Origin: a virus
Virus record (IMG/VR): IMGVR_UViG_3300043331_000496
Location: 1-35,980 of that record
Length of the DNA: 35,980 nt
Direction: 5' to 3' (one strand)
Each line of letters begins with the position of its first letter. The first letter of the stretch is position 1. Both the position numbers and the translations under genes were made by a program. Positions 3,465 to 34,126 of this stretch are shown in pieces. The notes below the pieces were generated by a model that was given only the letters and a program-made list of their open reading frames with translations, ran no database searches and was not told where the DNA came from.

Positions 3465-3538
3465 GCCCGCTTAGCTCAGTGGCAGAGCAACCCCCTCGTA
3501 AGGCGAAGACGTCGGTTCAATTCCGGCAGCGGGCTCCA
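3465..3538 (+). tRNA. tRNA-Thr (anticodon CGT)
   Basis: The acceptor arms GCCCGCT (3465-3471) and AGCGGGC (3528-3534) pair fully, followed by T73 and an encoded CCA. The D arm is GCTC/GAGC. The T arm is GTCGG-TTCAATT-CCGGC. The anticodon loop CTCGTAA gives CGT, reading ACG. The anticodon stem is imperfect: it has a C-C and an A-A opposition, so it may be divergent or partly degraded. Confidence 0.8.
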
Positions 3539-3544
3539 CTCTTC

Positions 3545-3618
3545 GGGAGTGTAGTTCAACGGTAGAACGGCGGCCTCCAACTCCGCAGACGTGGGTTCGA
3601 TTCCTACCGCTCCCGCCA
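3545..3618 (+). tRNA. tRNA-Trp (anticodon CCA)
   Basis: The acceptor GGGAGTG pairs with CGCTCCC, followed by G73 and encoded CCA. The D arm is GTTC/GAAC and the T arm is GTGGG-TTCGATT-CCTAC. The loop CTCCAAC gives anticodon CCA. G73 is the usual tryptophan discriminator, and the GTAGTTCAA start of the D region is also common in tRNA-Trp. The innermost anticodon-stem pair is C-T. The body also resembles tRNA-Gly, but position 34-36 alignment and G73 favour Trp. Confidence 0.85.
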
Positions 3619-3628
3619 CACATTGCAT

Positions 3629-3706
3629 GTGGGTGTAGCTCAGACTGGTCAGAGCGCTCGGCTTGGGACCGAGAGGCCGTTGGTTCGAATCCAGCCACCC
3701 GCACCA
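3629..3706 (+). tRNA. tRNA-Pro (anticodon TGG)
   Basis: The acceptor GTGGGTG pairs with CACCCGC, followed by A73 and encoded CCA. The D arm is GCTC/GAGC. The anticodon stem CTCGG/CCGAG is perfect and surrounds loop CTTGGGA, giving TGG. The T arm is GTTGG-TTCGAAT-CCAGC. It lies ten bases after the Trp gene. Confidence 0.92.
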
Positions 3707-3707
3707 T

Positions 3708-3782
3708 GATCCCGTAGCGTAGCGGAAGCGCGCCAGGTTCCGGACCTGGAGGTCGGAGGTTCAAATCCTCTCGGGATCGCCA
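3708..3782 (+). tRNA. tRNA-Arg (anticodon CCG)
   Basis: The acceptor GATCCCG pairs with CGGGATC, followed by G73 and encoded CCA. The anticodon stem CCAGG/CCTGG is perfect with loop TTCCGGA, giving CCG, which reads CGG. The T arm is GGAGG-TTCAAAT-CCTCT. It starts two bases after the Pro tRNA, so both are processed from one transcript. Confidence 0.92.
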
Positions 3783-3784
3783 AC

Positions 3785-3860
3785 AACCCCGTAGCTCATC
3801 GGCTAGAGCGCCGCGCTACGAACGCGGAGGTAGCGGGTTCAATTCCTGCCGGGGTTGCCA
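3785..3860 (+). tRNA. tRNA-Arg (anticodon ACG)
   Basis: The acceptor AACCCCG pairs with CGGGGTT, followed by G73 and encoded CCA. The anticodon stem CCGCG/CGCGG is perfect with loop CTACGAA, giving ACG. A34 would be deaminated to inosine by the host TadA enzyme, letting it read CGT, CGC and CGA. It starts two bases after the previous tRNA. Confidence 0.92.
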
Positions 3861-3862
3861 GG

Positions 3863-3937
3863 GCGCCGATAGCTCAGCGGAAGAGCAGCGGCCTTCTAAG
3901 CCGCGGGCCGCAGGTTCGAATCCTGCTCGGCGCGCCA
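3863..3937 (+). tRNA. tRNA-Arg (anticodon TCT)
   Basis: The acceptor GCGCCGA pairs with TCGGCGC, followed by G73 and encoded CCA. The anticodon stem GCGGC/GCCGC is perfect with loop CTTCTAA, giving TCT, which reads AGA and AGG, rare codons in GC-rich hosts. The T arm is GCAGG-TTCGAAT-CCTGC. It is the last gene of the six-tRNA array. Confidence 0.92.
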
Positions 3938-22535: not shown

Positions 22536-23657
22536 TTACGCGTCAGCCGGCGCAGCGACGTAGCCCGTCACCAAGCCGTGCTGTTTGGGGTTGTTGCGCT
22601 CGCTCGTCGCGCTGAGCGCCGTGCCGAAGGCCAACTTCTCCACGCCATAGATCGCGCGGATCGCGTTGCCCTTCAGCTCGCCGTAGTCGTCCTCGGCGCG
22701 CTTCCGATAAGCATAGCGCGAGGACCATGCCCAGCCGAGGCACTGCGCCCCGCAGAGGTAGACCGGCTCCACGTCGACCGTCCCGCCGGAGCCCACGTCC
22801 TCGTACACGGGGATGTGCTCGATCTCCTTGATGATCATGTTGTCCCAAAGGAGATCGCCGCCCTTGAACAGGCGCTCGTTCTCCATCTGCAACGACACTT
22901 CGCGCTGGGCCTGCTGGATCGCCGTGTTGTTGCGCAGGTCGCGGAAGCCGCGGCTACCCATGTAGACGATGTACATGTCCCGGCCGTTCGACTCGCTCCG
23001 GATGGGTCGGATGCGAGGGTCAGCGGCCTTCGCCATGCGCTTCATCTTGGACAGCATCGCGGGCGTCGCGAGGTCGTCCGTGTTGTTGATGTTCGCCAGC
23101 GACGCGCTGTGGTCGGTGCCCGACCTGTTCGCCAGATCGGCGCCGAACAGGATGCGGTCGAGGTTGTTGCTCAGCCACGCGTCCTTCACCGTCTCGGTCG
23201 CGCCCGCGTCGGTGTAGTAGAATTGGCTGTTGTTGTCGGAGAACACGGCGCCCAGCGCGCCGATGATCATGCCCTCGACATCCTCGTTCGACCACTGCTT
23301 GAGGCCCGCCTTCGCCGCGTCGAGCAGGGAGACGGCCGAGTATTGGTCGTCCACGTCCTCGAACACGACGCCGTTGCGCCGCAGCCCCACCGCGACCATC
23401 TGGGATCGCGTGTAGAGCGTCTCTTCGTTGTTGACCAGGGTCTGGCCGTTGGTCTTGGCCGCGCCCTTCAGCCGATTCGCCAGCGCGAAGGTGATCCACT
23501 TGCCCTTCTTGTTGGACAAGTCCTCCTTCACCTGGATGATCGAGCTTTCGTCCGTGCCCATCTCTCCCTTGAAGCGGTTGGAGGCGATGGACTCGACGTA
23601 AAACTTGTCCTCCCACTGCTGTACTGTTAGGCCCGATGCAACCGTCGTCGTCGACAC
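22536..23657 (-). CDS. Major capsid protein, N4-gp56-like
   Basis: The protein has 373 residues. It starts at a GTG (23657) behind a strong AGGAGG. The sequence FKGEMGTDESSIIQVKEDLS, then KGKWITFALANRLKG and NEETLYTRSQMVAVGLRRNG, fits the N4-gp56 family of HK97-fold capsid proteins. The later part contains DMYIVYMGSRGFRDLRNNT and PVYEDVGSGG, also usual in that family. It should form the icosahedral shell with the scaffold encoded just before it. P22 itself uses a different, longer coat protein (gp5, about 430 residues), so the head and tail modules here are mosaic. Confidence 0.85.
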   Translation of the reverse strand: MSTTTVASGLTVQQWEDKFYVESIASNRFKGEMGTDESSIIQVKEDLSNKKGKWITFALANRLKGAAKTNGQTLVNNEETLYTRSQMVAVGLRRNGVVFEDVDDQYSAVSLLDAAKAGLKQWSNEDVEGMIIGALGAVFSDNNSQFYYTDAGATETVKDAWLSNNLDRILFGADLANRSGTDHSASLANINNTDDLATPAMLSKMKRMAKAADPRIRPIRSESNGRDMYIVYMGSRGFRDLRNNTAIQQAQREVSLQMENERLFKGGDLLWDNMIIKEIEHIPVYEDVGSGGTVDVEPVYLCGAQCLGWAWSSRYAYRKRAEDDYGELKGNAIRAIYGVEKLAFGTALSATSERNNPKQHGLVTGYVAAPADA

Positions 23658-23723
23658 GGTTGGTCCTCCTCTGTCTGGCCCGGCCGTCCCTCACGGGGAT
23701 CGAGCCGGGCGCTGAGCTGAGCG

Positions 23724-23737
23724 GCGTCTCTCGACGC
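23724..23737 (-). promoter_or_regulatory. Small hairpin in the capsid-gene leader
   Basis: In the scaffold-capsid spacer (23658-23757), the leftward transcript can form GCGTC-GAGA-GACGC, a 5-bp stem with a GNRA-type tetraloop, about 70 bases before the capsid GTG. There is no T run. It may protect or pace the capsid message, but it is short and could be chance. Confidence 0.25.
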
Positions 23738-23757
23738 GGCGGTTCCAGGTTCAAGGC

Positions 23758-24618
23758 TTAGCGAAGTGCGTCCTTGAGGCTCGTCGGTCCCGTCCAGTTC
23801 GCGCCCGTCCGCGTCCCCACATTGGGGGCCGATGACAGGTCCGTCGGGATGTTGACCGGCGGTTTCTGCTTCTGCTGCTGGGGCGGCGCGTTCCGCATCG
23901 CTTCCAGCCTTGCCGCGACCTGGGCTTCGATGTAGGCGTCGGGGTCTCCCCCGAGCTTCTCGTAGGCCAGCTCGCGCTTGTGCCACCGCACCACGTCGCC
24001 CACCGGGTCGGCCGACCCGACGAACTGAGCGCGCAGATATGGATTGCGCGCCGCGGCTTCCTGATAGGCCCTGCCAGCGGCGTTGATCGCGTCCCGGCCG
24101 AACTCCCGGAGCGCATTCGCCTCCGAGATCTTGACCTTGACATCCATCTCCATGTCCGCCAGCCGCTGCTCCAGCACCGGGTGCAACCGCTGTTGTTGCG
24201 GTTGCTGGGCCGGCCTCTGGGGCTGCTGCTGGTATTGCGGAGGCTGTCTGGCCGCGGCCTCCATCGCCGCGATCCTCTCTCGAAGAGCCTTGGCCTCCTG
24301 GGCGTCCTTGGAGAGCGTGTCACGCTCTTTCGCCCACTCGGCCTGCGCCTTCTCGAGCTCCTTCCTCTTGGACTTTTCGCTCTTGTAGGACGCGTACGGC
24401 ACATGGTCTGCGAAACGGCCCGTCTTCGGGTCGCGCGGTCGGTCGACATCCTCGGCTTCCGCCTGGGGCTCGGGCGTCTCTCCGCCCTCAGGCTTGGCTT
24501 CGGTCTCCGCCGGCGGCTCTGCGGACTCAGGGGGAGCGCCCCCGCCGTCGTCCGCCTTCGCCATCGTCGGCTCGGCCTTCTGCGCTTCCTTCAACGCGTC
24601 TTCCAGACTGGTCGCCAT
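23758..24618 (-). CDS. Scaffolding protein
   Basis: The protein has 286 residues, extremely charged and low in complexity. Acidic Pro/Glu-rich residues 20-70 precede a helical coiled-coil part (LEKAQAEWAKERDTLSKDAQ, about 90-125), a Gln/Pro-rich linker (residues 130-160), then helical segments with VKISEANALREFG. The C-terminus, NVGTRTGANWTGPTSLKDAL, matches the short conserved tail common in podovirus scaffolds. It lies between portal and capsid genes, the P22 gp8 position, so it should assemble inside the procapsid and leave before DNA packaging. Confidence 0.75.
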   Translation of the reverse strand: MATSLEDALKEAQKAEPTMAKADDGGGAPPESAEPPAETEAKPEGGETPEPQAEAEDVDRPRDPKTGRFADHVPYASYKSEKSKRKELEKAQAEWAKERDTLSKDAQEAKALRERIAAMEAAARQPPQYQQQPQRPAQQPQQQRLHPVLEQRLADMEMDVKVKISEANALREFGRDAINAAGRAYQEAAARNPYLRAQFVGSADPVGDVVRWHKRELAYEKLGGDPDAYIEAQVAARLEAMRNAPPQQQKQKPPVNIPTDLSSAPNVGTRTGANWTGPTSLKDALR

Positions 24619-24717
24619 GTCGTCCTCGCTCTTGCCCGTTCACCGCGCCGGCATCGCGCCTCTGCCCTTCGGAGTCGGCATCACTCGTTGCCCGTCACAG
24701 CCGGCATCGCTGTCTCG

Positions 24718-26643
24718 TCAGGCTGAGGCCCGCGCCGGCGCTGGCCGGTCGGCGTCCTTCTTCGCCTTGTAGGTGTCGGCGCCGAGCTTCACGATCTCGG
24801 CCTCCGTTTTCCTGATGTCCGCGACCTGCTGCATGCGGTCGAGCGGGGTCTGAACCTCTTGCGCGGCTTGCGCCTGGATGCGGGCCTTCTCCAGCTCGAT
24901 CGGGCCGGCCATCCGCGCCTTCATCACGTCGCCCTGAGCCTTCGCCTGAGCCACCGCCTGCGCCTTCTGCGCTTCGGCCTGGGCCTCCATCTGCATCTGC
25001 TGCTGCGCAGCCTGCATCGCCGCCTGGGCCTGCTGCACCTGGGCCTGTTCGGCCTTGTCGATATACGCCAACAGCCGCCGCTTCTTGGTCGGCCGGATCG
25101 AGGGGATGCTCTCGACGAACAGGCGCGCGATGTCCGACTGCCCGTTCATCACCGCTTCCATGATCTGCGGCGAAATCTGCGCCAGCGCCATGAACTCCTC
25201 ACCCTCCGGCAGCACCACCTTGGGCGCCGGCTCGATGATGATGTCCATGTCCATTTCCGCGACGTTGTTCTCGACGCCCGCCTGGAACCCGAACTCGTTC
25301 ATCACGGGCGTGTTGAGCCCGATCCAGCGCACCGCGTCCTCGTCGTCGGTCACGCGGATCGTCGTTTCCTCCGTCCAGTGCTGCTGAATGAACAGCCAGG
25401 TCTTGCGGTAGGTCTCCTCGTCCATCGAATCAAGCTGGTCGGTCAGGTCGCCGGCCTCGATCATGCCGCCCTGCTGCTGCGCGATAATCGCGCGGCCGGA
25501 CTGGTCGCGGCTGTCCTTGCCCTGCATCGACGCGTTAGGCCCGAGCACCTCGAGCTCGGCCTGGGAGATTTCGAGCATGCGCGTCTGGGCCGCGCCCAGC
25601 TCGATGTTGTCGATCAGCTCGAACTTGCTGTCGGCGCCCACGTCCTGCAGCTCGATCACGAAATCGGGCTTGGCCAGCTCGCGGCGCACCGCCTCCGCGT
25701 CGGGCACGCTGCCCTTGGTGAGGATCATGCCGCGCGTGTTCAGCAGGTGAAGCGACTTGGACCGCCGCTTGTTGTACTCGTCCTGCGGGTCGATCAGATC
25801 CCGCATCGGCCCGTAGCGGGCGTTACTCTCGCCCTCGACGTAGGCCGAACGCCAGACGTAAGGGTGCGTCGGGCGGCCCTGCTCGTCCCTGAGCCAGGCC
25901 TCCGCCGGCTCCCGGAGATCGCCCGCGCGCGTGAACTCGTAGACGTACCAGCCCTCGGCCTCTCGGCAGTACATCTGCACCACGCGCACGCGCTGGCGGC
26001 CGCGGTCGCCCCAGAGCTTCCAGCGCGGCTTGTCGTCAAACGTGTCGGCGTGGGTGTTGTGGGACATCGTCGACTCGACGATGTCCTCCGCCTCCGGCCC
26101 GTAGAGCGCCAGCGCCTGCTTCTTGTCCATCCAGAGTACTTCGCCCAGGTAGGACGCGTCAGAGAAGTCGTCCTCCTCGCTGTGCGGGTCGCGGAACATG
26201 CGGTCCCAGCGCACGCACTTGTACTCCAGCTCCATGCGGTCGCGGCCCGGGCGCGGGTGCAGCTTGATCCCGCCCATCCCCTCGATCGTGATGTTGTCCC
26301 AGGCGCGCTTGCGGGCGTGCGCGTATTTGCCGGCCTGCACCTGGTAGCGGAGGCATTGGGTCGCCGCGTCCGCCGACATCTCGTCCGCGTGCATGTTCCG
26401 AGGGTAGGCCTTCGGGTCGGAGAGGTTGTTCCGCTCCATGCCCTTGTAGAAATTGATCTTGGCGCGGCACTTGTTGATGATCACCGGCGGTTGGCCGCGT
26501 TTCTTCAGCGCCTGGATCTCCGCATCCGTCAGCTGGGCGCCGTCGTAGTAGCGACGATAGCGCTCGCCGTTCTGACGTTCGGCGTAGGTCGTCTCTTCGC
26601 TCGACTCGAAGTACTCGATCCGGGTCGCGAGGTCGGCGGCCAT
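24718..26643 (-). CDS. Portal protein, P22 gp1-like
   Basis: The protein has 641 residues (P22 portal 725). I chose the ATG at 26643 because it overlaps the previous stop as TAATG; an in-frame ATG at 26754 would only add an Arg-rich shadow. The N-terminal block YRRYYDGAQLTDAEIQALKK, PPVIINKCRAKINFYKGMER and LEYKCVRWDRMFRDPHSEE is characteristic of P22-type portals. The C-terminus (about 545-630) is a long Gln/Ala-rich helix, as in the barrel of the P22 portal. It forms the dodecameric DNA entry vertex with TerL and the adaptor. About 99 bases after its stop carry no convincing gene. Confidence 0.85.
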   Translation of the reverse strand: MAADLATRIEYFESSEETTYAERQNGERYRRYYDGAQLTDAEIQALKKRGQPPVIINKCRAKINFYKGMERNNLSDPKAYPRNMHADEMSADAATQCLRYQVQAGKYAHARKRAWDNITIEGMGGIKLHPRPGRDRMELEYKCVRWDRMFRDPHSEEDDFSDASYLGEVLWMDKKQALALYGPEAEDIVESTMSHNTHADTFDDKPRWKLWGDRGRQRVRVVQMYCREAEGWYVYEFTRAGDLREPAEAWLRDEQGRPTHPYVWRSAYVEGESNARYGPMRDLIDPQDEYNKRRSKSLHLLNTRGMILTKGSVPDAEAVRRELAKPDFVIELQDVGADSKFELIDNIELGAAQTRMLEISQAELEVLGPNASMQGKDSRDQSGRAIIAQQQGGMIEAGDLTDQLDSMDEETYRKTWLFIQQHWTEETTIRVTDDEDAVRWIGLNTPVMNEFGFQAGVENNVAEMDMDIIIEPAPKVVLPEGEEFMALAQISPQIMEAVMNGQSDIARLFVESIPSIRPTKKRRLLAYIDKAEQAQVQQAQAAMQAAQQQMQMEAQAEAQKAQAVAQAKAQGDVMKARMAGPIELEKARIQAQAAQEVQTPLDRMQQVADIRKTEAEIVKLGADTYKAKKDADRPAPARASA

Positions 26644-26834
26644 TAGATGCTGTGCTCGTCCTCGAAGATGTCGCCGGGCTTGGCGCGAGGGTCGTCGCCG
26701 TAGTCGCGGCCAAGTGTCGGCGCCTTTGCCGTCGGCTGCAGCCCGCACACCCACTCATAAGCCGCCTTCGCCTCGTGCAGAACACCGCCGGCCAGCTCCA
26801 GGCACTTCAGCTTCACTTCCTCTTCATGGGTCAT
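26643..26834 (-). CDS. Small protein between terminase and portal
   Basis: The protein has 63 residues. The first half is helical (EEEVKLKCLELAGGVLHEAK, AAYEWVCGL), the second polar (GDDPRAKPGDIFEDEHSI). Similar small helical proteins with KLxCLELA...AxxxYxWV occur next to terminase genes of alphaproteobacterial podoviruses. Function unknown. It is joined by ATGA to TerL and by TAATG to the portal, so it is made in step with packaging proteins. Confidence 0.65.
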   Translation of the reverse strand: MTHEEEVKLKCLELAGGVLHEAKAAYEWVCGLQPTAKAPTLGRDYGDDPRAKPGDIFEDEHSI

Positions 26835-28276
26835 TGGGTTTTCCAGTTGCTGGTTTCTTCCGGCTCTTCGTACGGGTCGCGCTTCGGCCTGTCACCGCCC
26901 TTCTGCGTCGGGGTCCAGGGACGGCTCATGCAGGCGTAGCGCCAGTCGTCCGCCGCGTGGTCCTCGGCGTCCGTGTCCAGATCCTCGAGCTTGTCGGGAT
27001 CGTGCGGCAGGTTCGGGATGGTCCGAATGCTGTGCTGACAGGTCGCGAAGCAGGCGATCATCGGGCGGCCGTCCTCATCCCCGGTCAGGCGCGTGCGCAT
27101 CTGGTTCCAGCCCGAGATCGGCCCGCCCTTCTGCACCCGCTTGTTATCCGCCTGCCGCCAGTAGACGCCCGCCTGGATCATCTGCTCGCCGATCGACGGC
27201 CCGCCCTGCGTCTGGAAGATGGACGGGTCCGCCACCCCGTAGGCGATCACCTCGCCCGCCTCGCGCTCCTTGATGCCCGTCGCAATGCGCTCGGCGTCGA
27301 GCCTGATCCCGACGTTCGGCTTCGTCGCGCCGGTCCAGTCTCGATCTACCCCATACCACTCCCGGTATCGGATCAGGGCGCCGCGCGGCAGGACGACCGA
27401 GTCGCCCTGAGCGTTCCTGCACCAATGATCGTCCGCTACGACCGCCCACCAGCCTACCGAGAACGGGCTGGCGTAGCCGTGGTCGTAGCTCCGGAACCTG
27501 AGCCACGACTGCGGGACATCGAACGGCTCCAGGATGTGACGCGCTGCAGACCAGTTGTCGAAGAACGCCCCTTCGATCGCATTCCAGTCGCCTTCGAGCC
27601 ACGCTCGAACCAATGCGGCGGAGCCGACCAGATAAAGCCGGTTCACGTAGTCCGGGTCGCGAGAGAGCAACGCCCGATTCTGCGTCACCTTGCTCGGAAT
27701 GTAGCAGCGCGTGTGGATCGCTCCGTTGGGCAGCGTCACCCGCAAAATCTTCATTCCCGCAGGCCAAGGCGTCACGAACCGCTCTCGCAGCCATGATTGC
27801 CCCGGCCCTCCCGGATTGGCGGTCATTCCGAGAAAGCCGTCCGCGTCGCCCCGGATCGCCCCCCATAGCCGATCGATCGGCGCCGGGTCAGGGTAGTTGC
27901 CCGCCTCCTCAATGTCGGCGTCCGACAGGTTCTGTCCCTGATACTTCGCAGCGTCCGCGATGCTCTCGAGCGGGCGAAACCGCAGGCGAGCTCCACTCTG
28001 GAAAATAAACTGCGATTTCACCTTGTTGAAGCTCGCGCCCATCGGGCGGTACATCTCCTGAGCCCGGTCGAGCATGTCGTCGGACTGCGGCATCTCCTGC
28101 CGGAAGATGATCGAGTTCATGCGCCGGCCGAGGCGCTTTTGCCGAATGGCCCGGCGTCCGAGCACGCCGTCCGTCTTGCCCCCGCCGCGCGTCCCGCCGA
28201 ACAGGACCTCGCGCGCCGGGCACCTAATGAGAAGTTGCTGAGGCCCCGGCTGCGGCGCCCAGAGCAGCTGCTGCAT
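26831..28276 (-). CDS. terL: Terminase large subunit (packaging ATPase/nuclease)
   Basis: The protein has 481 residues. Walker A is GGTRGGGKT at residues 27-35. A Walker-B-like acidic pair is in DIEEAGNYPD (121-130). The nuclease domain begins near 264 with RSYDHGYASPFSVGWW (first metal-binding Asp) and continues with GVADPSIF near 347. A further acidic cluster, TDAEDHAADDWRYACMSRP, lies near the C-terminus. It drives DNA into the procapsid through the portal and cuts the concatemer. The ATG at 28276 overlaps the TerS gene by 53 bases, but no later start would keep Walker A. Confidence 0.92.
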   Translation of the reverse strand: MQQLLWAPQPGPQQLLIRCPAREVLFGGTRGGGKTDGVLGRRAIRQKRLGRRMNSIIFRQEMPQSDDMLDRAQEMYRPMGASFNKVKSQFIFQSGARLRFRPLESIADAAKYQGQNLSDADIEEAGNYPDPAPIDRLWGAIRGDADGFLGMTANPGGPGQSWLRERFVTPWPAGMKILRVTLPNGAIHTRCYIPSKVTQNRALLSRDPDYVNRLYLVGSAALVRAWLEGDWNAIEGAFFDNWSAARHILEPFDVPQSWLRFRSYDHGYASPFSVGWWAVVADDHWCRNAQGDSVVLPRGALIRYREWYGVDRDWTGATKPNVGIRLDAERIATGIKEREAGEVIAYGVADPSIFQTQGGPSIGEQMIQAGVYWRQADNKRVQKGGPISGWNQMRTRLTGDEDGRPMIACFATCQHSIRTIPNLPHDPDKLEDLDTDAEDHAADDWRYACMSRPWTPTQKGGDRPKRDPYEEPEETSNWKTQ

Positions 28277-28571
28277 TTTCCCACTCTTCGTCGGTCAACG
28301 CCTGATCGGTGATCACGTACGTCGTGTTGTCTTCCAACTCGACGGTCTGCTTGGGCAGACCCCATGCGCGAGAGAGAAGCGCCTCGGCGGCTCGCACTGA
28401 GGCGGACGGCTCTTCGGAGCGCATCCACTTCGCCAGCGTCTCGATCGCTTCGGCTGTGTGCGCCTTCGCCGCCTCCATCAGCTCGGGAGGCAGCTTCTTC
28501 GGCCGACCCTTGGGATTGCCGCTCTGCCCTGGCTTGAAGGTTGTAGATCGAACGCCGCCTTTGCCTGCCAT
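28224..28571 (-). CDS. terS: Terminase small subunit candidate (DUF5681-like N-terminus)
   Basis: The protein has 115 residues. The N-terminal FKPGQSGNPKGRPKKLP is the GQSGNPxGRP motif of DUF5681 proteins, frequent in small terminase subunits and DNA-binding phage proteins. The helical middle (EAIETLAKWMRSEEPSASVR, AAEALLSRAWGLP) and acidic end fit a TerS that recognises packaging sites and recruits TerL. It lies directly upstream of TerL and overlaps it by 53 bases. Assignment is by motif and position. Confidence 0.75.
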   Translation of the reverse strand: MAGKGGVRSTTFKPGQSGNPKGRPKKLPPELMEAAKAHTAEAIETLAKWMRSEEPSASVRAAEALLSRAWGLPKQTVELEDNTTYVITDQALTDEEWENAAAALGAAAGASATSH

Positions 28572-28600
28572 CGTCTGCTCAAATCCTGTTTTTCAGGGTA

Positions 28601-28963
28601 TCAGGCGCACTCGCCATAGTCGCTGTCCCAGGTCCCGTTGGTCTGCTTGGTGTAGATCATCAGCTCTTTGATGAGGCCGGCGTCGGTCACGATCTGAAGC
28701 TTGGCGTAGCCCGAGCCCTGAAAGGCGGAGAGGGTCAGGGTCACCGTGGTGTTGTCGCTCTCGACTTCAGCGGTCGCCCCGCAGCCAAGGGTCGCGACGG
28801 CCGCCGTATCGATCGTGTCGGATCCGAGCCATGGGCTCCAGTCTATGGTGTAGGTGAGGGACTCGTCCTCGTTCTGGGCGGCAAGGAAACGCTGGCGATG
28901 CTGGCTGATGCCTCGAACGACGAAGCGGCCGTTCTCGAGGGCCTTAACGGTGCGGTCGGTCAT
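28601..28963 (-). CDS. Beta-sandwich-like structural or accessory protein
   Basis: The protein has 120 residues. The N-terminus FVVRGISQHRQRFLAAQNED precedes LTYTIDWSPWLGSDTIDTAA and NTTVTLTLSAFQGSGYAKLQ. The W-x-x-WLGSDTI pattern followed by Thr-rich strands is common in small phage proteins near head or tail genes and usually predicted to adopt an Ig-like fold. Function unknown. Its stop is 29 bases before TerS. It overlaps the upstream small membrane gene as ATGA. Confidence 0.6.
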   Translation of the reverse strand: MTDRTVKALENGRFVVRGISQHRQRFLAAQNEDESLTYTIDWSPWLGSDTIDTAAVATLGCGATAEVESDNTTVTLTLSAFQGSGYAKLQIVTDAGLIKELMIYTKQTNGTWDSDYGECA

Positions 28964-31682: not shown

Positions 31683-32506
31683 GCTGCACTCCCCTGAAAA
31701 AGATCGGGTTTCTCGTACTTCGCCCGGATGTGAGCCGGGGCTTGCGACTTGGGCGGCCAGTTCTGGGACCAGCTGCCGCATTGGAAGGCCTTCTCCCACC
31801 AATCGTCGGGCTTGCCGGCGCCCGGCGCGTCGGTCGGATCGTCCTCCAGCCACGGCTCGTAGCGGCGAGCCTGGACCCATCGATGGATCGCAGGCTGGCC
31901 GCGGTCGGCGAGCACATCCGGGTCCTCCGCCACGTAGCGCTTGAGCGCGGCGAGCATCTTCTCGGCAGGCGTGTCGCGGACCGCGACCTTCAGCGCCTTC
32001 CCGAGCTCGGCCCTTGAGGACCGCTGACGCATCGCCTTGGTGGAAGCTTTCCAGATCGCCTCTTCGCCCGATCCGACAGGTACTGAGGGTTCTAAGTGAG
32101 GGTTAATCCTTATTGGGGGTGCAGGGGGTATGTCGTTTTTGTCCGGGGTCCCTGTCGTTTTTGTCCGGGCGGACACATTGTCCGGGCGGACTCTGTGTCC
32201 GGGGTGTCCGGACTCTGTGTCCGGGGTCTGGGAGGACTTCATGTCCGGGGTGATCCCCGCGCCGATGGTGTAGCGGCTACGGCGGCCGGGGCGGTTTTCG
32301 GTGTAGACGACGCCCTGGTCCTCCAGCTCGCGGAGGTGGCGGCGGACGGAACGCTCGCACAGCTCGGTCTCAGCCGCGATCAGGGCGAGGGACGGGAAGC
32401 AGGACCATTGCTCGTCGGCCCGGTCAGCCAGCGACATGAGCACGGCTTTTCGCCCCGGGCAGCCAGTCAGGATCTTCCGAGCCCAGTTCATGGCTTCGAT
32501 GCTCAT
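31679..32506 (-). CDS. Replication initiator-like protein with N-terminal HTH (lambda O-like role)
   Basis: The protein has 275 residues. Residues 20-85 form a winged HTH of the HTH_36 type: VLMSLADRADEQWSCFPSLA, LIAAETELCERSVRRHLREL, DQGVVYTENRPGRRSRYTI. The middle, about residues 86-125, is low-complexity and is encoded by the repeat array described separately. The C-terminus (KALKVAVRDTPAEKMLAALK, later DDWWEKAFQCG) is helical and could bind the helicase. The gene follows the DnaB gene directly (ATGA). A gene containing its own iteron-like repeats next to a helicase gene is the lambda O/P layout in function, though here helicase replaces loader. Confidence 0.65.
   Translation of the reverse strand: MSIEAMNWARKILTGCPGRKAVLMSLADRADEQWSCFPSLALIAAETELCERSVRRHLRELEDQGVVYTENRPGRRSRYTIGAGITPDMKSSQTPDTESGHPGHRVRPDNVSARTKTTGTPDKNDIPPAPPIRINPHLEPSVPVGSGEEAIWKASTKAMRQRSSRAELGKALKVAVRDTPAEKMLAALKRYVAEDPDVLADRGQPAIHRWVQARRYEPWLEDDPTDAPGAGKPDDWWEKAFQCGSWSQNWPPKSQAPAHIRAKYEKPDLFQGSAA
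32140..32250. repeat. Iteron-like array inside the initiator gene, candidate replication origin
   Basis: Seven copies of TGTCCGG (six continuing as TGTCCGGG), all in the same orientation on the plus strand, begin at 32140, 32162, 32179, 32196, 32205, 32218 and 32242. CGTTTTTGTCCGGG and CTCTGTGTCCGG extend pairs of them. On the coding strand the repeats fall in different reading frames (giving TPD, HPG and ART), so the DNA and not the protein is conserved. This resembles the iterons of the lambda origin within gene O. No AT-rich unwinding element is obvious; the nearest AT-richer patch is 32100-32135. Confidence 0.7.
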
Positions 32507-33891
32507 TCACCCCTCCCGTCGTTCGCCGCCCAAAACCTGTTCGTGCTGGGGTCGAGCAGGATCTCGACCGCGCGTCCGCCGTCGCCCTCCCGGTTCTTGC
32601 CCAGGATCACCTCGAGCTTGCGGGAGAACTCCAGCCGCATCCGCTCGCTCGGGTCGTCTTCGTGCTTGGCGTAGACGCTCTCGCGGTAGAGCAGCCAGAT
32701 CTTGTCGGCGTTCTGCTCAACCGCGCCCGAGTCCCGGAGCATCCACACCGCCGGCCGCCGGTCGGACTGTTTCTCCGCCTCCCGGTTGATCTGCCAGAGG
32801 CAAAGCATGGGAATGTCGTTGTCCTTTACCCCGTCCAGAAGCTCGTTGACCGATCCGGTCGATTCCTCGTGCCGAGCCCGGTAGCCCGGCAGCTTGAGCA
32901 GGCCCCCGTGGTCGAGCACGACGAGCCCCAGGCCGCGTTTGGCGCAGAGCGACGACCGCGCAAACCGCCGGGCCAGCTGGATCGCCCCAGAAGCCGTCAG
33001 GGCGCGCTTGTTCACGTAGGTGAGGGGGATGTCCCGGTCGGCGGCCGCGGCCGCGCGCACGCGCTCGTATTCGTCGTCCTGCATGGTTCCGCGACGGATC
33101 TGCCGGTGGATCACGTCGGCGGCCGCCCCCAGCCCACGGTTGGCGAGCCGGTCGGGGCGCATCTCGAGGGTGATGTAGAGCACCGCCCGGCCCTGCCGCG
33201 CGACCCGGCGGGCGTACTCGTGGCCGAACGCGCTCTTGCCCATGCCGGTCCGGCCGGCGCAAATCACCAGCTCGCCCGGCTCGATCCCGTCGGTCGCCTC
33301 GTCGAGCGCGTCGATCCCGAAATAGCTGGCGGTGGGCGAGCGCCCATCGCCCCGTTGGGCGGCGGCCGCGGACACGGTCAGGGCCTCAGTCACCGCCTCG
33401 CCGTAGGTCGTGAACACGGCGCTGTTGCTGGTGGCCGCCGCCAGCTCGCTCTCAAGCCAGTCCCGGAGATCGGCCGCCTTCGTGCTGGTGTCCTTGCACT
33501 CCCGGATCAGGCGCTCGGCCAATGAGGTGAGCCGCCGCCGCTCGGCCAGCTCGGCGATGTGCCGGGCGTAGTCGACCGCCCCCTGGATCGAGCAGGCGCC
33601 CACCGACAGCTCGAGCAGGTAGCGCTTGCCGCCGAGCGCGGCGAGGCCCTTGTCGACCTCCGCCATCGGCGCCAGCGTCAGCGCGTCGCCGCGGCCGCCC
33701 TCCGCCAGAGAGGCGAGCGCCCACCGGAATATCCGCCCGTGGACCGGCTCGAAGAAATCATCCGCCGTCACCAGCCCGTCGAGCTTGTCCGCGAGCGTCG
33801 GCTCGATCAGCAGGGTCCCGAGCAAGGCCCATTCCGCATCGATGCTCGCGAGCGGGCTCGCAACATCGGGCTCCCCCAGGAAATGCCTCAC
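32503..33891 (-). CDS. dnaB: DnaB-type replicative helicase
   Basis: The protein has 462 residues from a GTG at 33891 that overlaps the previous stop (GTGA). The N-terminal domain is present (IDAEWALLGTLLIEPTLADK, TADDFFEPVHGRIF). Walker A is GRTGMGKS near residue 217. The RecA core continues with VLYITLEMRPDRLANRGLG, and Walker B is LVVLDHGGL near 327. The usual DYLQL sequence is changed to DHGGL. Then come LWQINREAEKQSDRRPAVWM and LRDSGAVEQNADKIWLLYRE, the typical DnaB C-terminal motifs. It should unwind DNA at the phage fork. Confidence 0.88.
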   Translation of the reverse strand: MRHFLGEPDVASPLASIDAEWALLGTLLIEPTLADKLDGLVTADDFFEPVHGRIFRWALASLAEGGRGDALTLAPMAEVDKGLAALGGKRYLLELSVGACSIQGAVDYARHIAELAERRRLTSLAERLIRECKDTSTKAADLRDWLESELAAATSNSAVFTTYGEAVTEALTVSAAAAQRGDGRSPTASYFGIDALDEATDGIEPGELVICAGRTGMGKSAFGHEYARRVARQGRAVLYITLEMRPDRLANRGLGAAADVIHRQIRRGTMQDDEYERVRAAAAADRDIPLTYVNKRALTASGAIQLARRFARSSLCAKRGLGLVVLDHGGLLKLPGYRARHEESTGSVNELLDGVKDNDIPMLCLWQINREAEKQSDRRPAVWMLRDSGAVEQNADKIWLLYRESVYAKHEDDPSERMRLEFSRKLEVILGKNREGDGGRAVEILLDPSTNRFWAANDGRGE

Positions 33892-34040
33892 TCCCGCCCC
33901 CCGTCGATCACCCGGAACACCGCCCGGCGCTCGGCCCTGGTCCGGGCCAGCTCCAGCTGGGCGCGAAACAGCGCGCCGCCCAGCTTGGCGAGCGCCGCCT
34001 CCAGGTTCCGATTGCTCGGGTCGTTCGGATCGTAGGTCAT
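33888..34040 (-). CDS. 50-residue hypothetical protein before the helicase
   Basis: ATG at 34040 follows GGGGTGGGGA. The peptide MTYDPNDPSNRNLEAALAKL, then GGALFRAQLELARTRAERRA and VFRVIDGGRE, is a charged helix. Its TGA overlaps the GTG of the helicase. Short helical proteins directly before phage dnaB genes may act as loader or regulator, but nothing in the sequence shows it. Confidence 0.55.
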   Translation of the reverse strand: MTYDPNDPSNRNLEAALAKLGGALFRAQLELARTRAERRAVFRVIDGGRE

Positions 34041-34126
34041 TCCCCACCCCATCCCCGCGCGTCACTGAAATGACGCGAACTGGCTAGTTGACGAAGCCGG
34101 GAGGGCGGGTTACGGAGGGGATGCAT
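34037..34126 (-). CDS. Possible 29-residue leader peptide
   Basis: A short frame from ATG 34126 (MHPLRNPPSRLRQLASSRHF) ends by overlapping the next ATG as ATGA, the junction style typical of this operon. It has GGGGGC eight bases upstream. The 7-bp inverted repeat at 34058-34077 lies inside it, so the stretch may be regulatory instead of coding. Confidence 0.25.
   Translation of the reverse strand: MHPLRNPPSRLRQLASSRHFSDARGWGGE
34058..34077. promoter_or_regulatory. Perfect 7-bp inverted repeat, operator candidate
   Basis: CGCGTCA and TGACGCG are separated by six bases, about 18 bases before the start of the first small gene of the replication operon. Size, symmetry and position fit a repressor operator. 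No repressor gene is recognised in this window. Confidence 0.4.

Follow-up and report, generated by a model that had tools for sequence, protein, structure and literature searches.

The window, i.e. the whole stretch of viral DNA analysed here (35,980 nt, positions 1 to 35,980 of IMG/VR record IMGVR_UViG_3300043331_000496), contains a gene for a putative replication initiator, which is flanked by genes for a DnaB-type replicative helicase and a protein with DnaA domain IV (Table 1). A sequence-only reading had placed a winged-HTH (wHTH) gene beside a DnaB helicase gene and a DnaA-domain gene and had proposed a phage origin within the former, and the matches to HTH_36, DnaB_C and Bac_DnaA_C bear out this gene order. 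No AAA+ domain was found in the DnaA-domain-IV protein. Elsewhere in the window, a cluster of six tRNA genes (Thr, Trp, Pro and three Arg; 3465-3937, plus strand) lies on the strand opposite to most of the predicted genes. Positions 22536-28963 of the minus strand encode a portal protein, a large terminase, a Phage_capsid_3 protein and a podophage Gp77-like adaptor, which suggests a podovirus-like virion.

Table 1. Genes and sequence features of the putative origin region (positions in the window).
Feature	Position	Strand	Remarks
DnaB-type replicative helicase gene	32503..34065	-	DnaB_C, E 1.4e-46; ATGA overlap with initiator start
Initiator gene, 275 aa	31679..32506	-	HTH_36, PHROG, AlphaFold2
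Iteron unit 1	32234..32249	-	CCCGGACATGAAGTCC
Iteron unit 2	32209..32225	-	CCCGGACACAGAGTCCG; dyad CGGAC-N5-GTCCG
Iteron unit 3	32187..32203	-	CCCGGACACAGAGTCCG; dyad
Iteron unit 4	32170..32186	-	CCCGGACAATGTGTCCG; dyad
Iteron unit 5	32153..32169	-	CCCGGACAAAAACGACA; right half degenerate
Iteron unit 6	32131..32147	-	CCCGGACAAAAACGACA; right half degenerate; like CCGGACAAAAATGACA of relative L072
A+T-rich low-GC3 tract, candidate unwinding element	32081..32116	-	Directly 3' of array
AACC box 1	32101..32104	-	Codon frame 0
AACC box 2	32088..32091	-	Codon frame 1; 13 bp from box 1
DnaA domain IV protein gene, 178 aa	31146..31682	-	Bac_DnaA_C, E 3.6e-25; ATGA overlap with initiator stop; start codon inferred

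The wHTH domain of the initiator is matched by Pfam family HTH_36 (E 1.4e-12), the sole Pfam match above its cutoff; the Pfam lambda O family is absent among the hits to E 1, a point against the origin reading. The protein also matches PHROG families annotated as replication initiation or O-like, namely phrog_391 (E 5.9e-14), phrog_8540 (5e-15) and phrog_270 (4e-22). An AlphaFold2 model, built from an alignment of 20 relatives from which two rows derived from phage records were left out, predicts a wHTH domain (residues 1-82, pLDDT about 93), a linker (residues 85-145, pLDDT about 40) and a helical C-terminal domain (residues 147-221).

Seven copies of TGTCCGG occur in the same orientation on the plus strand (starting at 32140, 32162, 32179, 32196, 32205, 32218 and 32242; array 32140-32248), with spacings of 22, 17, 17, 9, 13 and 24, exactly as the sequence-only reading had listed them. 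As it had also noted, the copies are translated differently: on the coding strand, from 32248 to 32140, they occupy frames 0, 0, 1, 1, 0, 2 and 0, i.e. all three frames of the initiator gene. No other 7-mer is clustered in this way in the window, and the largest 7-mer cluster comprises three copies in every one of 30 dinucleotide-shuffled versions of it. When the codons of the initiator gene are permuted among identical amino acids, the commonest 7-mer reaches at most five copies in 2000 shuffles, against the seven observed, while for CCGGACA, counted on both strands, the mean is 1.6 copies and a count of seven was attained at least once in 5000 shuffles. Because scoring by 8-mers with one mismatch proved too permissive, a longer-range repeat statistic was used instead, by which the window gene scores 15 against a maximum of 10 in 200 synonymous shuffles (0/200 reach the observed score).

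The array lies about 250-375 nt into the gene and, together with the A+T-rich tract, corresponds to residues about 86-143, inside the predicted disordered linker. Repeats at such a place might be the by-product of a repetitive, low-complexity linker, in which TPD-type peptides indeed recur; but the use of three frames, the failure of synonymous shuffles to reproduce the repeats, and the conservation of iteron codons in relatives beyond that of the peptide reject this peptide-repeat explanation, which has a negligible probability. The earlier contention that selection acts on the DNA is thus sustained by both the shuffles and the relatives' codons.

The TGTCCGG repeats are half-sites of imperfect dyads, which form six units better described on the coding strand as CCCGGACA-n4-GTCCG. 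The seventh copy (32205-32211) consists of the second half-site of unit 2 and the following ACA. All three copies of the exact dyad CGGAC-N5-GTCCG in the 36-kb window belong to the array, whereas units 5 and 6 possess no good right half-site, which weighs against an origin. The sequence-only reading had noted neither the dyads nor the neighbouring A+T-rich tract, nor how the half-site is linked to the recognition helix.

Related initiator genes, 77 after removal of redundancy, were assembled from viral contigs, phage records and prophages; a scan of genome contigs with the window protein yielded one relative. A second viral contig of 41 kb (L001, IMGVR_UViG_3300036842_000020) encodes an initiator 100% identical to that of the window. 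In 53 of the 77 genes none of 200 synonymous shuffles reaches the observed repeat score, and in 62 the score is reached by no more than 5% of shuffles, as compared with control ORFs from the same loci, where 1/60 beats all 100 shuffles and 5/60 stand at 5% or below. The remaining 15 genes, including that of Rhizobium phage PPF1, have no significant repeats by this general statistic, a result unfavourable to the origin reading. For lambda O, which served as a positive control, the statistic recovered precisely the four annotated iterons, which an A+T-rich tract follows; none of 200 shuffles reached the score of lambda O.

The median start of the arrays in the relatives is nt 296, just past the wHTH domain, and the arrays consist of lineage-specific dyads, usually in several frames, followed by a 40-nt A+T-rich tract. 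As their spacings are often 22-23 or 16-17 bp, successive copies rotate through the frames. In Rhodobacterales-type genes, for instance, the motif is CCGTGTCCGGA; SfV-type genes have TGGTGCA, and one Pseudomonas phage has CCCCGGCAC. The sequence-only reading had suggested a comparison of relatives for DNA repeats that persist under a changing linker, and such repeats are present: the arrays share their location and use mixed frames, while their dyads are peculiar to each lineage. Among 40 closely related Rhodobacterales-type genes, synonymous-codon identity is 0.85-0.96 over the iterons and the tract versus 0.74 overall, while in the protein the linker is one of the least conserved parts, and conservation of the peptide encoded over the iterons falls short of that of the wHTH domain.

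In the window, the tract following the array has 58% A+T in 36 nt and a nearby GC3 of 0.33 versus a gene mean of 0.79; by itself it is only marginally unusual (p about 0.045), which tells against the origin reading. Averaged over 62 genes of the family, A+T is raised by +0.14/+0.16 and GC3 is changed by -0.27/-0.35, both shifts being confined to the 40 nt that follow the array on its 3' side. Together with codon conservation at the iterons and the tract, these shifts point to a function at the DNA level. The tract is further marked by AACC boxes: at least two boxes 10-14 bp apart are found in 44/62 genes (synonymous-shuffle mean 15.9, maximum 22) and at least three in 31/62 (mean 3.4, maximum 8), with more than one reading frame used in 31 of the 44, while AACC runs at shifted positions in the same genes number 0-3. 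Examples of tandem runs are those at nt 420-449 of the L072 gene and nt 431-467 of the L192 gene. The tract is common to phages with unrelated iterons. An exact search of viral contigs for the AACC pattern also matches unrelated GSFTGS-type and EPV-repeat proteins, and the pattern is therefore not diagnostic by itself.

By analogy with the RK2 oriV, where the initiator TrfA binds the 13-mer repeats of the unwinding element in single-stranded form (PMC4081077), the AACC tract may act in opening or in helicase loading. With evenly balanced confidence, we propose that a great many phage initiator genes carry a linker origin with two parts, a fast-changing dyad array specific to the initiator and a slowly changing AACC module (10-14 bp period within a discrete 40-nt A+T-rich tract). 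The module would be an element for unwinding or for helicase loading that these genes have in common and that remains unchanged as the iterons diversify with the wHTH domain.

The recognition helix RSVRR is present in four of the 77 initiators (the window, L072, L201 and Rhizobium phage PPF1), and exactly these four genes contain at least three [AC]CCGGAC[AT] sites, a match limited by the relatedness of PPF1 and L201 to each other. At unit 4 of the window, CCGGACAATGTGTCCGC shares 16 of 17 bases with CCGGACAATTTGTCCGC of PPF1 and differs in one. L002 and L003 are closer overall to the window initiator, yet differ from it in both recognition helix and iteron. Over all pairs of genes, iteron similarity has a partial rho of 0.31 with the recognition helix (0/999) and of 0.33 with the rest of the wHTH domain; the Mantel signal of the helix is thus significant but no more specific than that of the rest of the domain, which speaks against a helix-specific signal. 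Taken together, these data suggest that the recognition helix and the half-site are related.

As the half-site follows the recognition helix, the wHTH initiator is the likely binder of the iterons, rather than the DnaA-domain protein, which had been named beside it but is a poor candidate. A binding site for this protein or for host DnaA could be expected from the DnaA-domain gene directly downstream; however, the window contains seven DnaA-box-like sites with one mismatch against 7.2 expected, none of them near the array, and a DnaA-domain-IV homologue was detected next to 5 of the 77 initiator genes only, whereas arrays are common. Boxes at chance level lead us to reject a DnaA-dependent origin with a DnaA-box cluster, and binding of the DnaA-domain-IV protein or of host DnaA at the array is very improbable. 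Weak DnaA-domain-IV homologues are encoded upstream of the initiator in L033, L046, L073 and L074.

The array is best interpreted as a phage replication origin of the lambda ori type, a strongly supported reading to which we assign a probability of about 0.88 on the sequence features described. Dyads of 17 bp are also typical of operators, and the wHTH fold is closest in the PDB to transcription regulators, solved relatives of the initiator beyond generic wHTH regulators being absent there; the protein might accordingly repress or regulate its own operon from these dyads, with no part in replication. This is improbable, as the array is located well inside the gene rather than at a promoter, is followed by an A+T-rich tract across the family, adjoins a DnaB helicase gene, belongs to a gene with replication-initiator PHROG matches and repeats the anatomy of lambda ori. 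GC skew, which had been suggested as a check of the origin, is uninformative: its cumulative curve has its minimum at 28.6 kb, and the placement of nearly all genes on one strand confounds it.

In the origin reading, dimers of the wHTH initiator, the product of the array's own gene, would bind the six imperfect 17-bp dyads and would wrap and strain the DNA, so that the adjacent A+T-rich AACC-box tract could open. The phage DnaB-type helicase would then be placed on the exposed strand by the C-terminal domain, perhaps together with the DnaA-domain-IV protein. We infer initiator binding, melting, helicase loading and origin use from the arrangement of these elements. Dimer binding to the iterons, with initiation at this site, draws indirect support from the recognition-helix match.

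A lambda-type origin within a gene is already known as a kind, while the shared AACC-box tract and the breadth of the family may be new; a search of an open-access library, outside which most subscription journals lie, found no survey of such genes and neither a helix/half-site relation nor a shared opening element. The results provide a precise origin candidate for the phage of this record and a simple guide by which origins may be located in many other phages and in prophages, namely a wHTH initiator linker with mixed-frame dyads followed by an A+T-rich AACC tract. Beyond this, they suggest that the half-site is related to the recognition helix and that an opening element is shared.

Among the known systems compared, iterons of RK2-type plasmids are, to our knowledge, not located inside the initiator gene. 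The RK2 oriV resembles the window in its combination of iterons with an unwinding element containing 13-mer repeats (PMC4081077), but plasmid iterons bind monomeric initiators (PMC5043065), unlike the dimers proposed here. The right analogue, as the sequence-only reading had held, is lambda ori, which lies in the middle of gene O and contains four inverted repeats bound by O dimers, followed by a 40-bp A+T-rich region (PMC5043065, PMC7466680). The iterons of Stx-phage P27 have been recoded synonymously in plasmids (PMC7466680). In both lambda and the window, the iterons are dyads of about 18 bp that occupy several frames and lie mid-gene between the DNA-binding and C-terminal domains of the initiator, and the A+T-rich tract of about 40 bp after the lambda iterons is equalled in size and side by that of the family (PMC5043065). 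They differ in the iteron sequence, in the number of units (six in the window, four in lambda), in the Pfam assignment of the initiator (HTH_36 instead of lambda O), in the AACC boxes, which the lambda tract lacks, and in the phage DnaB-type helicase gene next door, no lambda-P-like loader having been identified in the window.

The gene PPF1_90 of the isolated Rhizobium phage vB_RleM_PPF1 shares CCGGAC iterons, the RSVRR helix and an A+T-rich AACC tract with the window gene, but its product is about 36% identical to the window protein in the N-terminal domain, its four iterons are spaced by 23-34 bp, and no DnaB homologue was detected next door. The genes annotated by PHROG as 'replication initiation O-like', including those of SfV, ST64B, Vibrio phage D67, Pseudomonas phage PP9W2 (where it is named 'primosomal protein I') and others, differ from the window in their iteron sequences, but encode homologous wHTH domains and contain their own arrays at the same place, most of them with AACC-type tracts.
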